From the NCBI GenBank assembly GCA_026393075.1, contig JAPLAW010000059.1, positions 1 to 34,224 on the forward strand: a DNA stretch of 34,224 nucleotides, read 5' to 3'. This DNA comes from Actinomycetota bacterium. Lineage in GTDB: Bacteria; Actinomycetota; Actinomycetes; Nanopelagicales; Nanopelagicaceae. The notes under the pieces were generated by a model. It was not told where the DNA came from. It saw only the letters and a program-made list of their open reading frames with translations, and searched no databases. A program made the position numbers and the translations under genes. Numbering within the stretch: the first letter of the stretch is position 1; each line of letters begins with the position of its first letter. Below are positions 24,215 to 28,871 of the stretch, in pieces.

Positions 24215-24574
24215 ATGAGAGTAAAACGTGGAGTCCACGCAGCCAAGAAGCGTCGTACAACTCTAGAACGTGCCAGTGGTTACCGCGGTCAACGTTCACG
24301 TCTTTTCACAAAGGCGAAAGAGCAAGTTACCCACTCAATGGTTTATGCATTCAACGATCGCAAGGATAAGAAAGGCGACTTCCGTCGTCTCTGGATCCAA
24401 CGTATCAATGCAGCAGCTCGTGAAAACGGTCTTACTTATAACCGTTTGATCCAAGGTTTAAAGGAATCTGGCGTTGAAGTTGATCGCCGTTTACTTTCAG
24501 AGCTAGCAACTAATGACCCAGCGACTTTCAAGGCGCTAGTTGAAGTTGCTCGCAAGACTTTAGCTGCACTTTAA
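24215..24574 (+). CDS. rplT: Ribosomal protein bL20
   Basis: 119 aa. The basic N-terminal arm ([31 protein letters not shown]) and the globular part with [24 protein letters not shown] are typical. L20 is an early 23S rRNA-binding assembly protein, and in several bacteria it represses its own operon. AAGGAG precedes the ATG. No normal terminator lies between it and the next gene; see the stem inside that gene. Confidence 0.98.
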
Positions 24575-24597: not shown

Positions 24598-25395
24598 ATG
24601 ATCGAGAGCCTTCACTCGCCGCATATCGCGCGGGTGAAGGCTCTTATCAGTTCTAAGGGCGCTAAAGAACGTCGCGAAAGTGCACGTTATGTCGCCGAAG
24701 GTGCGCAGTTTGTACGCGAAGCCATTAAGGCTAAAGCTACTGATCAAGTAGATGTCCTATATCTAACAGCTAAGGGGCGTTCTCGTTTAGAGAATGATCA
24801 GATCGACTTAGCAAAATTTAAATCTGAAGATGTCACAGATGCCGTAATGAAGGCAATGAGTGAAACCATCTCGCCGCAAGGCATTCTGGCCATTTGCAAA
24901 ATTCCGAATCCACAGTTGGAATCATTGAAATTATCGGGCAAATCAATTTTACTTTATTTGCATGAAATTCAAGATCCCGGAAATGCCGGCACAATTCTGC
25001 GTTCCGCCGATGCGTTAGGTGCAACGGCTGTAATTACCTCACCAGGTAGTGTTGATATGTATTCACCCAAGGTGGTTCGTTCAACGGCCGGCTCACTTTG
25101 GCACTTGCCTATTTTCGAGCGGGTATCACTTGATTTGCTACAAACGACGATTCCAAATCTAAACTTTGCCACCTTGTCAGCAGATGGAAAAAAATCTATT
25201 CGACAATTTTTGGTTACTGAAAATACAGTTTTGATTTTCGGAAATGAAGCCCGTGGTTTAGCTGATCTCCAAGTTCCTGCAGCGACTCAGGCGCTAGCTA
25301 TACCCATGGCTGGCAATGCCGAAAGCCTTAATCTTTCAGCGGCCGTCTCGATAGTTTTATACGAGTTAACAGCAAAAATTGCCGACGATAAGTAA
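24598..25395 (+). CDS. TrmH/SpoU-family RNA 2'-O-methyltransferase
   Basis: 265 aa. The N-terminal substrate-binding domain (SLHSPHIARVKAL...YVAEGAQFVREAI) precedes a SPOUT domain with three class motifs: EIQDPGNAGTILRSADALGA, FGNEARGL and IPMAGNAESLNLSAAVSIVLYE, which form the knotted SAM site. The target is a ribose in rRNA or tRNA; which nucleotide cannot be told. This gene between rplT and pheS is common in Actinobacteria. Codons 3-16 also encode a strong RNA stem. There is only a weak AGAAG before the ATG. Confidence 0.93.
   Translation: MIESLHSPHIARVKALISSKGAKERRESARYVAEGAQFVREAIKAKATDQVDVLYLTAKGRSRLENDQIDLAKFKSEDVTDAVMKAMSETISPQGILAICKIPNPQLESLKLSGKSILLYLHEIQDPGNAGTILRSADALGATAVITSPGSVDMYSPKVVRSTAGSLWHLPIFERVSLDLLQTTIPNLNFATLSADGKKSIRQFLVTENTVLIFGNEARGLADLQVPAATQALAIPMAGNAESLNLSAAVSIVLYELTAKIADDK
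24605..24644 (+). terminator. 15-bp stem-loop inside the 5' end of the TrmH-family gene
   Basis: Arms AGAGCCTTCACTCGC (24605-24619) and GCGGGTGAAGGCTCT (24630-24644) pair over 15 bp with a single G-U wobble and a 10-nt loop. There is no U tract afterwards (CTCTTATCAG). It lies 31 nt after the rplT stop, so it may be a U-less terminator or attenuator for the infC-rpmI-rplT operon, or a translational control element for the methyltransferase. The structure is clear; the role is inference. Confidence 0.5.
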
Positions 25396-25419: not shown

Positions 25420-26427
25420 ATGAATCCGCAAGAAATCAACGAATGGGTCAGCGCTGCCAAGTCGGCATTTGCAGCCGCTGGTGACCTCGATGAACTTAAA
25501 GCGGCTCGCTTAGCTCACACCGGTGATAAGGCTCCGATCTCACTGGCTAGTCGTGGCCTTGGCTCACTTTCACCGGAAGAAAAGGCTTCCTTCGGAAAAG
25601 TTATTGGCGAAGCTAAAGCAGCGATTGCCTCAGCTTTAGCTGATGAGACTGCCCGGTTAGAGATTGCTCGCGATCAGAAAATTTTGCTCGAAGAAGTTGT
25701 AGATATAACTCTGCCGGCAAAGCTCACACATGCTGGGGGATTACACCCAATTACGATTATCAAAAATGACATTAGTGATTTCTTTTTAGCTCAAGGTTAT
25801 TCAGTTGTTGAAGGCCCAGAACTTGAATCAAGTTGGTTGAATTTCGATGCGCTAAATATTCCAGCTGATCATCCAGCTCGAACCATGCAAGATACTTTCT
25901 TCGTTGAGCCACTTAGCGCTGGTTTAGTTCTGCGCACACAAACTTCACCGCTTCAGATTCGTACGATGCTTACCGAAGAGCCACCGATTTACATCATCTC
26001 TCCTGGCCGCACATTCCGCGCTGATGAATTAGATTCAACGCATAGTCCAGTTTTCCACCAAGTTGACGGTTTAGTAGTTGACCGCGGAATTTCAATGGCT
26101 CATCTCAAGGGCACCCTCGATAATTTTGCGCGTCACATGTTTGGTCCTGACGTAACAACCAGACTGCGCCCATCTTTCTTCCCATTTACCGAACCCAGTG
26201 CTGAAGTTGATGTTTTCTTTAATGGTCGCTGGATTGAGTGGGGTGGCTGCGGAATGGTTAATCCAAAGGTGCTCGAAACCTGTGGCGTCGATACCAACGA
26301 ATTTAGCGGCTTTGCATTCGGTATGGGTCTTGAGCGAACCCTGATGGTCCGCCATGGCATCACTGATCTACATGAAATTGTTGAAGGTGACTTGCGCTTC
26401 ACCCGTCAGTTTGGAGTTGGCCTCTAA
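25420..26427 (+). CDS. pheS: Phenylalanyl-tRNA synthetase alpha subunit
   Basis: 335 aa. The N-terminal coiled-coil arm that binds tRNA (about residues 1-85) is followed by the class II catalytic core: HPITIIKNDISDFF, FDALNIPADHPARTMQDTFF, LRTQTSPLQIR, WIEWGGCGMVNPKVLE and the motif 3 region FGMGLERTLMVRHGI. With PheT it forms the alpha2-beta2 enzyme that charges tRNA-Phe. The stop shares a base with the pheT ATG (TAATG). There is no ribosome site; translation may be leaderless. Confidence 0.97.
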   Translation: MNPQEINEWVSAAKSAFAAAGDLDELKAARLAHTGDKAPISLASRGLGSLSPEEKASFGKVIGEAKAAIASALADETARLEIARDQKILLEEVVDITLPAKLTHAGGLHPITIIKNDISDFFLAQGYSVVEGPELESSWLNFDALNIPADHPARTMQDTFFVEPLSAGLVLRTQTSPLQIRTMLTEEPPIYIISPGRTFRADELDSTHSPVFHQVDGLVVDRGISMAHLKGTLDNFARHMFGPDVTTRLRPSFFPFTEPSAEVDVFFNGRWIEWGGCGMVNPKVLETCGVDTNEFSGFAFGMGLERTLMVRHGITDLHEIVEGDLRFTRQFGVGL

Positions 26428-28871
26428 TGCTGATTCCTCGTTCTTGGGTTAATGATTTCGTTGATCTATCTGGCATTTCCGATGAAACCATTGCCGATGC
26501 TTTTGTGCGAGTTGGCTTTGAGATTGAAGAAGTTATCAAACAAGGCGCTGATCTAACTGGTCCACTTGTAGTTGCTCGAGTACTTGCCATAGAAGAGTTA
26601 GCTGAGCATAAAAAACCTATTCGCTACGTTGAATTAGATTGCAATGAAGGCCAAAGCCGTTTTGTAATCTGCGGTGCTCGTAACTTCGCGGTAAATGATT
26701 TAGTTATCGCAGCTTTGCCAGGAGCCGTCTTGCCAGGTAACTTTGCAATAAGTGCGCGTGAGACGTATGGTAAAACCAGTAACGGCATGATCTGTTCTTC
26801 CAAAGAGCTGGGCTTAGGCGAAGACCATTCCGGAATCATTGTTCTAGCTGAAGGATCAGCTGTTCTTGGGCAAGATGCGATCGATTTACTTCAAATTAAT
26901 GACACCATCTTTGACATTGCAGTTAACCCTGATCGCGGTTATGCCTTAAGTATTCGAGGTGCAGCACGTGAAATTGCAGGTGCCCTCGATCTGAACTTCA
27001 CTGACCCAATCACACATATTAAATCCCTTGAATTCAAAGAGGGCAGCGGAGCGACACCAATCAAGATTTCAGATGGTGCGATGGTTGCTTATCTTCGTTC
27101 CCTTGATAATTTTAATCCGAAAGCTTCATCTCCAATTTGGCTGAGTCGCCGGGTCGAAAAAGTTGGCATGCGTTCTATTTCACTGGCCGTTGACGTTACT
27201 AACTATGTAATGATCGAACTTGGTCAGCCGCTTCACGCGTTTGATCGTGCCAAGATCATCGATGGCTTAGAAATTACTTATGCTGCCGATAAAGCTAAGT
27301 TCAAGACCCTGGATAGCCAGGAACGTGTTTTAGCAAGCTCTGATTTGGTTGTGCGCGATAACAAACAAGTTCTAGCACTCGCCGGCACGATGGGCGGCCT
27401 AGATTCTGAAATTACCGATAGCACGACAACGATCGCGATAGAAGCGGTACGTTTTGATCCAATCGCAATTGCCAAGAACTCGCGTCGCCATAAGCTTTCA
27501 ACTGAAGCATCTCGTCGCTTAGAGCGTGGCGTTGATCCATCGTTAGCCGAACTTGCCTCAGCGCGTGCTGCCGAATTAATGATTTCACTCGGTGGTGCTA
27601 CCTATTTGGGCACCGCTAAAGCAGGCGAAGCTAAATATCCGGCGATCATCGCCCTTGATCCTAAATATGTTAATGATCGTTTAGGTACAGAGCTTTCTGC
27701 TGATGCGATCGCTAAAGCGCTCACAACTGTAGGTTGCGATGTTGATGTTAAGAGTTGGAAAGTCGATCCACCTTCTTGGCGATCAGACTTACAAATTCCA
27801 GCAGATTTAGTCGAAGAAGTGGCTCGCATTGTTGGGTATGACCAAATCCCATCAGTGCTGCCACGTAGTCCGTATGCCGCAACGCTTACACCAGCACAAC
27901 TACGTCGTCGGACTGTTGCGTCAGCACTTGCTGCTCGCGGATTAACTGAAGTTCAGAATTTCCCATTTGTTGCTGAGTCAACCATGAAAGCTCTTAACTA
28001 CACCGGCGAACGCGCAGCTACCTTCCGAATCGCTAATCCGATGTCTGAAGAAACGCCTTTGATGCGTACGCATTTGATTCCAGGATTAATTGCTGCAGCA
28101 CAACGTAACCTGTCACGCGGTGCTCGCGATTTCGCACTCTTTGAAATTGGCGCAATTTTCCGGAACACCACAAAAATGGTTGATGGCTTGTTCCCGCCGC
28201 TAGGGAAAAAGCCAGATGCGGCAACGATCAAAGCAATTTTCGACAGCGTTCCACCACAACCAATTCACTTAGGTGCCATCTTCGTTGGTAAAACAACTGG
28301 TGATAACTGGCGCACCAAAGCTCGTGCCTACGAGTGGGCCGATGCGATTGCCGAAGCACAAACGGTTTTGGATCTGTGCGGATTGCAATACACGGTTGAG
28401 CGATCTGATTTCGCCCCTTGGCATCCAGGGCGCTGTGCTGAGTTACTAGTAGATGGCAAAGCTGTGGCACATGCCGGCGAACTTCATCCGCGCGTTTGTT
28501 CTGAATTCGGTTTGCCAGCAAGATCATGCGCGTTGGTAATAAACCTTGATGCACTTCCTGCTAGCAACACGGTTAGAGCCGCGGTAATTGGTTCGATGCC
28601 AATTGCAGTTCAAGATGTAGCTCTTGTCGTGGCTGCCGATGTTTCTGCAGCCGCACTTGAGCAGGCTTTAGTTGAAGGGGCAGGGGATCTGCTTGAATCA
28701 ATCGTGCTCTTTGACCGCTACGACAAGATTGGCGATGGCAAGATTTCATTGGCCTTCACGCTTTCCTTCCGAGCCACAGATCGCACGCTTACTGGCGAAG
28801 AAATCACTGCCGCTCGCGAGGCAGCGGTGGCAAATGCGGCCAAACTTTACGGGGCAACGGTTCGTTCTTAA
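26427..28871 (+). CDS. pheT: Phenylalanyl-tRNA synthetase beta subunit
   Basis: 814 aa, normal length. Domains in order: an N-terminal OB-type tRNA-binding domain (LVVARVLAIEELAEHKK...ICGARNF), the B3/B4 editing domain (LSRRVEKVGMRSISLAVDVTNYVMIELGQPLHAFD), B5 (ADLVEEVARIVGYDQIPS), a catalytic-like core, and a C-terminal FDX-ACB domain (PIAVQDVALVV...ILVLFDRYD-type end). The editing domain removes Tyr mischarged on tRNA-Phe. The start is coupled to pheS by a 1-nt overlap, and the stop codon ends 3 nt before the first ARG box. Confidence 0.97.
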   Translation: MLIPRSWVNDFVDLSGISDETIADAFVRVGFEIEEVIKQGADLTGPLVVARVLAIEELAEHKKPIRYVELDCNEGQSRFVICGARNFAVNDLVIAALPGAVLPGNFAISARETYGKTSNGMICSSKELGLGEDHSGIIVLAEGSAVLGQDAIDLLQINDTIFDIAVNPDRGYALSIRGAAREIAGALDLNFTDPITHIKSLEFKEGSGATPIKISDGAMVAYLRSLDNFNPKASSPIWLSRRVEKVGMRSISLAVDVTNYVMIELGQPLHAFDRAKIIDGLEITYAADKAKFKTLDSQERVLASSDLVVRDNKQVLALAGTMGGLDSEITDSTTTIAIEAVRFDPIAIAKNSRRHKLSTEASRRLERGVDPSLAELASARAAELMISLGGATYLGTAKAGEAKYPAIIALDPKYVNDRLGTELSADAIAKALTTVGCDVDVKSWKVDPPSWRSDLQIPADLVEEVARIVGYDQIPSVLPRSPYAATLTPAQLRRRTVASALAARGLTEVQNFPFVAESTMKALNYTGERAATFRIANPMSEETPLMRTHLIPGLIAAAQRNLSRGARDFALFEIGAIFRNTTKMVDGLFPPLGKKPDAATIKAIFDSVPPQPIHLGAIFVGKTTGDNWRTKARAYEWADAIAEAQTVLDLCGLQYTVERSDFAPWHPGRCAELLVDGKAVAHAGELHPRVCSEFGLPARSCALVINLDALPASNTVRAAVIGSMPIAVQDVALVVAADVSAAALEQALVEGAGDLLESIVLFDRYDKIGDGKISLAFTLSFRATDRTLTGEEITAAREAAVANAAKLYGATVRS

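Follow-up and report, generated by a model that had tools for sequence, protein, structure and literature searches.

Does the beginning of a methyltransferase gene in a freshwater actinobacterium also control transcription arriving from the ribosomal-protein genes ahead of it? The question arises at a gene junction where an earlier note, made from the sequence alone, had picked out an RNA stem just behind rplT and suggested that the same letters may both encode protein and act as a terminator, an attenuator or a brake on translation. Synonymous-site constraint and covariation support this dual use. A terminator or attenuator seems the best of the three options, because the T-biased tail behind the stem is constrained, stem and tail are fixed to one another, and the distances to the flanking start and stop codons vary.

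The rplT–tsnR locus

The window, by which we mean the whole 34,224-nucleotide stretch of DNA analysed, belongs to the genus of Candidatus Planktophila lacus (a same-genus tsnR match lies at 668051 in NZ_CP016769.1, our genome G070) and to the family Nanopelagicaceae (NCBI taxonomy), whose members are tiny freshwater actinobacteria. The ORF list and profile searches give the gene order infC, rpmI, rplT, tsnR, pheS, pheT, where infC, rpmI, pheS and pheT are named from sequence and order, and "tsnR" is a shorthand label for a SpoU/TrmH-family RNA 2′-O-methyltransferase gene. The features discussed are as follows.

24215–24574, + strand: rplT (ribosomal protein L20), the end of infC-rpmI-rplT; Pfam Ribosomal_L20 at 144.6 bits, NCBIfam rplT_bact above its cut-off
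24598–25395, + strand: tsnR, SpoU/TrmH-family RNA 2′-O-methyltransferase; Pfam SpoU_methylase at 114.9 bits
24605–24619, + strand: 5′ arm of the hairpin, coding within E-S-L-H-S-P; fold, covariation and codon constraint
24620–24629, + strand: apical part, a loop with two inner pairs; fold, with codons 8 and 10 free of synonymous constraint
24630–24644, + strand: 3′ arm of the hairpin, coding within R-V-K-A-L; fold, codon constraint and covariation
24643–24654, + strand: T-biased tail, codons 16–19, with an excess of third-position T; proposed U-tract and putative release site
25420–28871, + strand: pheS and pheT, downstream genes; ORFs named by sequence and order

That the stem lies within the opening codons of a TrmH-family gene, as the earlier note had it, is borne out: the SpoU_methylase score of the ORF at 24598–25395 compares with a Pfam cut-off of 29.7 bits and places the host gene in this family, and the MRM3-like and SpoU substrate-binding domains also exceed their Pfam cut-offs. 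All 12 of its NCBIfam matches fall under the curated cut-offs, including those for RlmB (TIGR00186, 107 against 160.15) and TsnR/NshR (NF000477, 56.3 against 425) equivalogs.

The arrangement is shared across the family, for which our counts refer to 118 loci from 116 genomes, out of 180 genomes with a match (L033/L083 and L034/L084 are identical loci retrieved twice, and L118, L120 and L121, fragments lacking the N-terminus, were left out). In all 118 loci rplT is immediately 5′ of tsnR, and a pheS match follows in all 75 that have at least 300 nt of flank. The final codons of tsnR, at 25363–25386, show mild synonymous constraint of their own (8-codon windows up to 0.16 over expectation), perhaps a promoter or start signal for pheST, or small-sample noise. 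Genomes without tsnR were considered as a natural experiment and set aside: of the 13 checked, 11 also lack rplT, and in the other two rplT is no more than about 210 bases from the edge of a contig, which makes assembly gaps the likely reason. Seven public MAG records whose titles name Bifidobacterium breve or Streptomyces griseus (L144, L145, L151, L154, L196, L199 and L208) encode a Nanopelagicaceae tsnR, in two cases 93–95% identical to that of the window, and their organism labels therefore look wrong.

A hairpin within the first codons of tsnR

Folding of 24605–24644 gives 15 continuous pairs, the stem length that had been claimed, plus two inner pairs, at −29.7 kcal/mol. None of 200 dinucleotide shuffles is as stable (z −6.82), and this hairpin heads the 50 that were detected when both strands of the window were scanned, which agrees with its earlier description as one of the strongest stems present. 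The transcript thus has one of the components of an intrinsic terminator, a stable RNA hairpin that contains G+C. It begins at the eighth base of tsnR, and 30 bases separate it from the end of rplT at 24574; the note was right that it follows the rplT stop codon closely, though not in the figure of 31 nt. Its coordinates likewise hold for the stem, although the constrained element is longer and takes in T-biased codons up to 24654. A simple consensus terminator scan reports no terminator-like site at the rplT–tsnR junction, probably because fewer than five of the eight bases 3′ of the stem are T.

A repeat element was considered and rejected, as the 13-nt arm sequence recurs exactly just once more in the genome, within an ABC-transporter ATPase-like ORF and with no stem; a copy with one mismatch is found on another contig, in surroundings without this hairpin.

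Conservation of the stem in relatives

The earlier note had named loss of the stem in close relatives with the same protein as the outcome that would speak against it. We find the reverse: in a first search all 29 same-genus loci keep 13–15 of the 15 pairs, and 25 of them keep all 15. Named public loci, a set that overlaps with our other (unnamed) loci, have 14 or 15 pairs in 80 of 80 cases, P. lacus and P. versatilis included. Across the 118 family loci, read in the same register, 13–15 pairs are present in 101, 9–12 in 12 and four in five. Those last five are four loci of genus g31 and one of g38, and g31 has an unrelated stem of its own, AACCGCCGACA...TGTCGGCGGTT, at the same place. Stem length and the apical pairs vary within the family; outside the apical pairs the arms are nearly invariant, though only within the main lineages, since in g31 they are replaced. 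Genus g30 (L063–L067, L099 and L108) has lost the Arg of the R-V-K motif and mostly keeps the stem, apparently bulged; in one of its members, L065, the stem is weak in the synonymous shuffles described below.

Covariation within the paired arms

Covariation was scored over 106 distinct sequences, of which four are out of register (three from g31 and one from g38) and lower the score. There are several features of interest. First, the 15 stem pairs hold a standard base pair in 92.2% of cells, and when the partner is shifted by 1–3 columns pairing falls to 23–51%. Second, the covariation that had been proposed as a check is found, with changes on both sides at 8 of the 15 pairs; neither this count nor the paired-cell fraction is reached in any of 500 shuffles. 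Third, there are 71 double-change cells versus 24.4 in shuffles, again with no shuffle of the 500 having as many. Many of these cells nonetheless represent few events, because the main double change arose in two clades: a tree of 115 proteins, built with the stem-coding residues excluded, places A-U at this pair in two separate clades. In this main swap, codon 6 changes at its first base (His to Asn) together with the synonymous third base of a Val codon. All 68 loci with C at this base of codon 6 have GTG as the Val codon, and 44 of the 50 with A have GTT; the other six are the out-of-register loci of g31 and g38, which have GTG (5), and one locus with ATT.

Finally, among the 102 in-register rows G-U cells outnumber A-C cells by 83 to 9, which indicates that the thing selected is the plus-strand RNA, with the proviso that some of the G-U cells are C/T wobble within the His/Asn codon. 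The same imbalance leads us to disfavour a DNA operator or cruciform.

Codon constraint and a T-biased tail

The synonymous-site constraint that had also been proposed as a check is found in both arms and extends into the T-biased codons 3′ of the stem. When synonymous codons are shuffled under an unchanged peptide the stem is lost (median z −5.3), and none of 300 shuffles is as stable as the native sequence in 98 of 112 distinct regions; z lies above −3 in seven (L062, L065, L081, L111 and L115–L117). At ten well-conserved stem codons, codon identity at the same residue is 0.72 against 0.28 expected, as compared with 0.38 against 0.35 for 91 conserved codons in the rest of tsnR. Codons 4, 5 and 14–16 are nearly fixed, while synonymous choice is free at loop codons 8 and 10. 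At the level of sequence comparison, the presence of a selected RNA hairpin within the protein code is established.

These data bear on whether a protein motif merely happens to be coded by a near-palindrome. The motif does resemble the N-terminal S-P-x-x-R-V-K-A of outgroup homologs, and part of it is presumably needed by the protein since the outgroup N-termini are similar. The synonymous shuffles, however, retain the peptide and lose the stem, the paired positions covary, and g31 has a stem of unrelated sequence. We accordingly give coincidence next to no chance, and a chance palindrome imposed by the peptide is ruled out by the covariation and the shuffles.

The constraint does not stop at the stem. 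Codon 16 (Leu) is CTT in 103 of 110 cases versus 23% elsewhere in tsnR, codon 18 (Gly) is GGT in 76 of 80 versus 28%, and codon 19 (Ser) is TCT in 73 of 94 versus 19%; by codon 21 the bias is absent (GGT in 38 of 106). Among 255 four-codon windows, the one that starts at codon 15 has the largest excess of third-position T. The resulting tract is interrupted, with six T in a 12-nt window here and seven in typical relatives. For comparison, over 400 kb of the genome of a relative, G015, the 12-nt tails of 13 post-gene hairpins hold a mean of 4.5 T (the best has 8) and those of 85 coding hairpins a mean of 3.2. Of 112 family regions, 100 have a positive terminator score (d>0) of the d'Aubenton-Carafa type, as compared with 0 of 168 control windows drawn from these genes. 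Regions of the family with d<=0 number 12 and include L012 (G015's own copy) and L045, in which the tail is broken, and L115–L117, which have a weakened stem and no U-tail. Stem and selected U-rich tail together point to the anatomy of an intrinsic terminator.

Two other strong hairpins lie near predicted gene starts in G015, at 717374–717405 (L228, with a long U-tail) and 875828–875872 (L236); these may be further embedded terminators or miscalled starts.

The tail also helps in judging whether the hairpin is a processing or stabilising element, that is, an RNase III site or a 3′-end protector by which a long-lived rplT mRNA would be separated from a short-lived one for tsnR. A long paired stem directly behind ribosomal-protein genes would suit such a role, as would the fact that in 118 of 118 family loci its place behind rplT is the same. 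Such an element does not predict a T-biased tail, and it sits poorly with the variable stem length and apical pairs; we think it very unlikely.

A proposed leaky attenuator

We consider it probable that the hairpin and U-rich tail form an intrinsic (Rho-independent) terminator that acts as a leaky attenuator within codons 2–19 of tsnR. RNA polymerase leaving infC-rpmI-rplT would form the hairpin right after the rplT stop codon; part of the complexes would halt at the tail, and the remainder would continue into tsnR and pheST. The hairpin would in this way fix how much methyltransferase mRNA is made relative to ribosomal-protein mRNA, and pheS and pheT would share the read-through unless they have a promoter of their own. 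Termination, its efficiency and the purpose of the hairpin are what we infer here.

The position of the start codon is central to this proposal. Since the hairpin lies downstream of it, any full-length tsnR mRNA, from whichever promoter, is a read-through product if that start is used; such an mRNA must cross the hairpin, so that the hairpin can be no complete stop, and hence the leaky attenuator reading. An in-frame ATG, GTG or TTG is present at or above residue 1, by 0 to 30 nt, in 118 of 118 family loci. Misassignment of the start codon is disfavoured by this upstream start and by the likeness of the motif to outgroup N-termini; a start inside or below the stem may still be in use. The stem and tail form a fixed unit, and what varies among species is how far this unit lies from the start codon and from the rplT stop, the latter distance from 4 to 63 nt (median 20) in the family and about 30 nt here.

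Initiation signals provide a further contrast. Shine-Dalgarno pairing of −4 kcal/mol or better is found at tsnR in 3% of 118 loci, versus 97% of 68 for rpmI, 100% of 37 for rplT and 28% of 43 for pheS. For an attenuator, the lack of a Shine-Dalgarno sequence at tsnR would keep translation low and ribosomes off the truncated transcripts. The same data are equally pertinent to the main rival, in which the stem is a translation brake that slows ribosome loading on tsnR and leaves transcription untouched. With the stem 8 nt into the gene, and with almost every family locus lacking Shine-Dalgarno pairing, a strong stem near the start should indeed hinder initiation, and a brake may add to attenuation. 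As the explanation of the element it seems unlikely, in that the nearest start codon moves from 0 to 30 nt above residue 1 according to species while stem and tail stay unmoved, and the T bias in the codons 3′ of the stem is left unexplained.

To return to the proposed attenuator, PMC4824070 bears on whether ribosomes would permit it. In E. coli, terminators in the initial 100 bp of a coding region are described there as working, and translation cost one placed 30 bp past the AUG only ~10% of its efficiency. Those situated shortly after an upstream stop codon were repressed by ribosomes up to ~27 nt away. PMC2753549, from another group, speaks against this: it states that a terminator within a coding region is not functional, and gives one example from M. 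leprae. Terminating rplT ribosomes may tune the leak in some species.

The family distances between rplT stop and stem fall within the E. coli range of ribosome repression given in PMC4824070, and this would also suit a regulated attenuator, in which an effector or antiterminator (the methyltransferase, L20 or a translation signal) switches read-through. In several loci (L003, L010, L012, L018, L027 and others) AGAGCCTT of the 5′ arm is present a second time in the final codons of rplT. This copy offers an alternative partner for the 3′ arm, though not a general one: only 27 of 118 loci have a partner of at least 8 nt in the 120 nt upstream, so the 3′ arm has no conserved alternative. Nor did we find, among the 118 loci and by Rfam search, which returned no match, the conserved, mutually exclusive antiterminator expected of a leader-peptide or riboswitch system, and the arms are nearly invariant only in the main lineages, being replaced in g31. 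A dedicated switch is in our estimation distinctly unlikely.

The same junction in the class Actinomycetes

At class level 77 of 80 loci were usable, three being left out because rplT was not in reach. When the rplT–tsnR spacer is 69 nt or more, a hairpin at least as stable as −21 kcal/mol is present in the spacer of 25 of 25 loci, to be read with the caution that these organisms are mostly G+C-rich and that long G+C-rich spacers give more room for chance hairpins; in L136, L259 and L283 the best hairpin is not wholly inside the spacer. When it is under 31 nt, 23 of 26 loci have their best hairpin starting within tsnR, in unrelated sequences (for example of the GGCGAGCC...GGCTCGCC type), given that start codons were chosen by script and that the region searched varies with spacer length. 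The mean z of the start window is −1.83 for short spacers (n=26; 13 below −2), −0.66 for intermediate (n=23; 6 below −2) and −0.20 for long (n=28; 3 below −2). Short-spacer starts differ from long-spacer starts (p = 0.00014) and from control windows of the same genes (p = 0.00016), in statistics that ignore relatedness. These figures are suggestive of a tendency for short spacers to go with stems inside tsnR and long ones with stems in the spacer. Against a terminator, the embedded stems at class level lack a U-rich tail, with a mean of 1.8 T in the 10 nt behind the hairpin for short spacers and 1.6 for long.

A class-wide scheme can be drawn from this, which we put forward tentatively and lean slightly against. 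A terminator ending infC-rpmI-rplT would be the constant and its place would drift: as the spacer shrinks, the terminator would be absorbed into tsnR, repeatedly re-invented with unrelated sequences. The N-terminal peptide would then be partly terminator-shaped, and tsnR, perhaps pheST too, would depend on obligatory read-through of ribosomal-protein transcription.

Implications

One DNA stretch thus appears, from its pattern of conservation, to be both protein code and volume control. If it does terminate transcription, it would be a natural, family-wide terminator that doubles as obligatory protein code, with arms and U-tail alike visible as synonymous-site constraint. It would mean that streamlined genomes can retain a regulatory signal after the loss of its spacer, and that gene starts may hold terminators that intergenic scans miss; constrained arms together with T bias in the next codons would be a simple comparative test for others. 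An RNA methyltransferase, and perhaps PheRS, would be coupled to ribosomal-protein transcription through a fixed leak.

Comparison with known systems

Internal read-through terminators set stoichiometry within operons, and the proposed attenuator is similar in being a leaky stop between strongly and weakly expressed genes of one operon. Those known to us are intergenic or lie over the end of the upstream gene, never in the opening codons of the downstream one, and in open-licence papers we found no description of a terminator in the opening codons of tsnR. The E. coli rplT-pheM-pheST attenuator, with its Phe-rich leader peptide and alternative stems, is also located between rplT and pheST; unlike it, the locus described here has no conserved alternative stem or separate leader ORF that we could find. 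The spacer hairpins of other Actinomycetes occupy the same junction and presumably have the same task, but these putative terminators are in long spacers outside coding sequence, unlike the tsnR stem. Closest in geometry is the tR2 terminator placed in an E. coli coding region, as described in PMC4824070, which is likewise a hairpin terminator shortly past a start codon. That case was engineered into a short test ORF, whereas the tsnR hairpin is natural, lies in the conserved N-terminus of an enzyme and is present family-wide.
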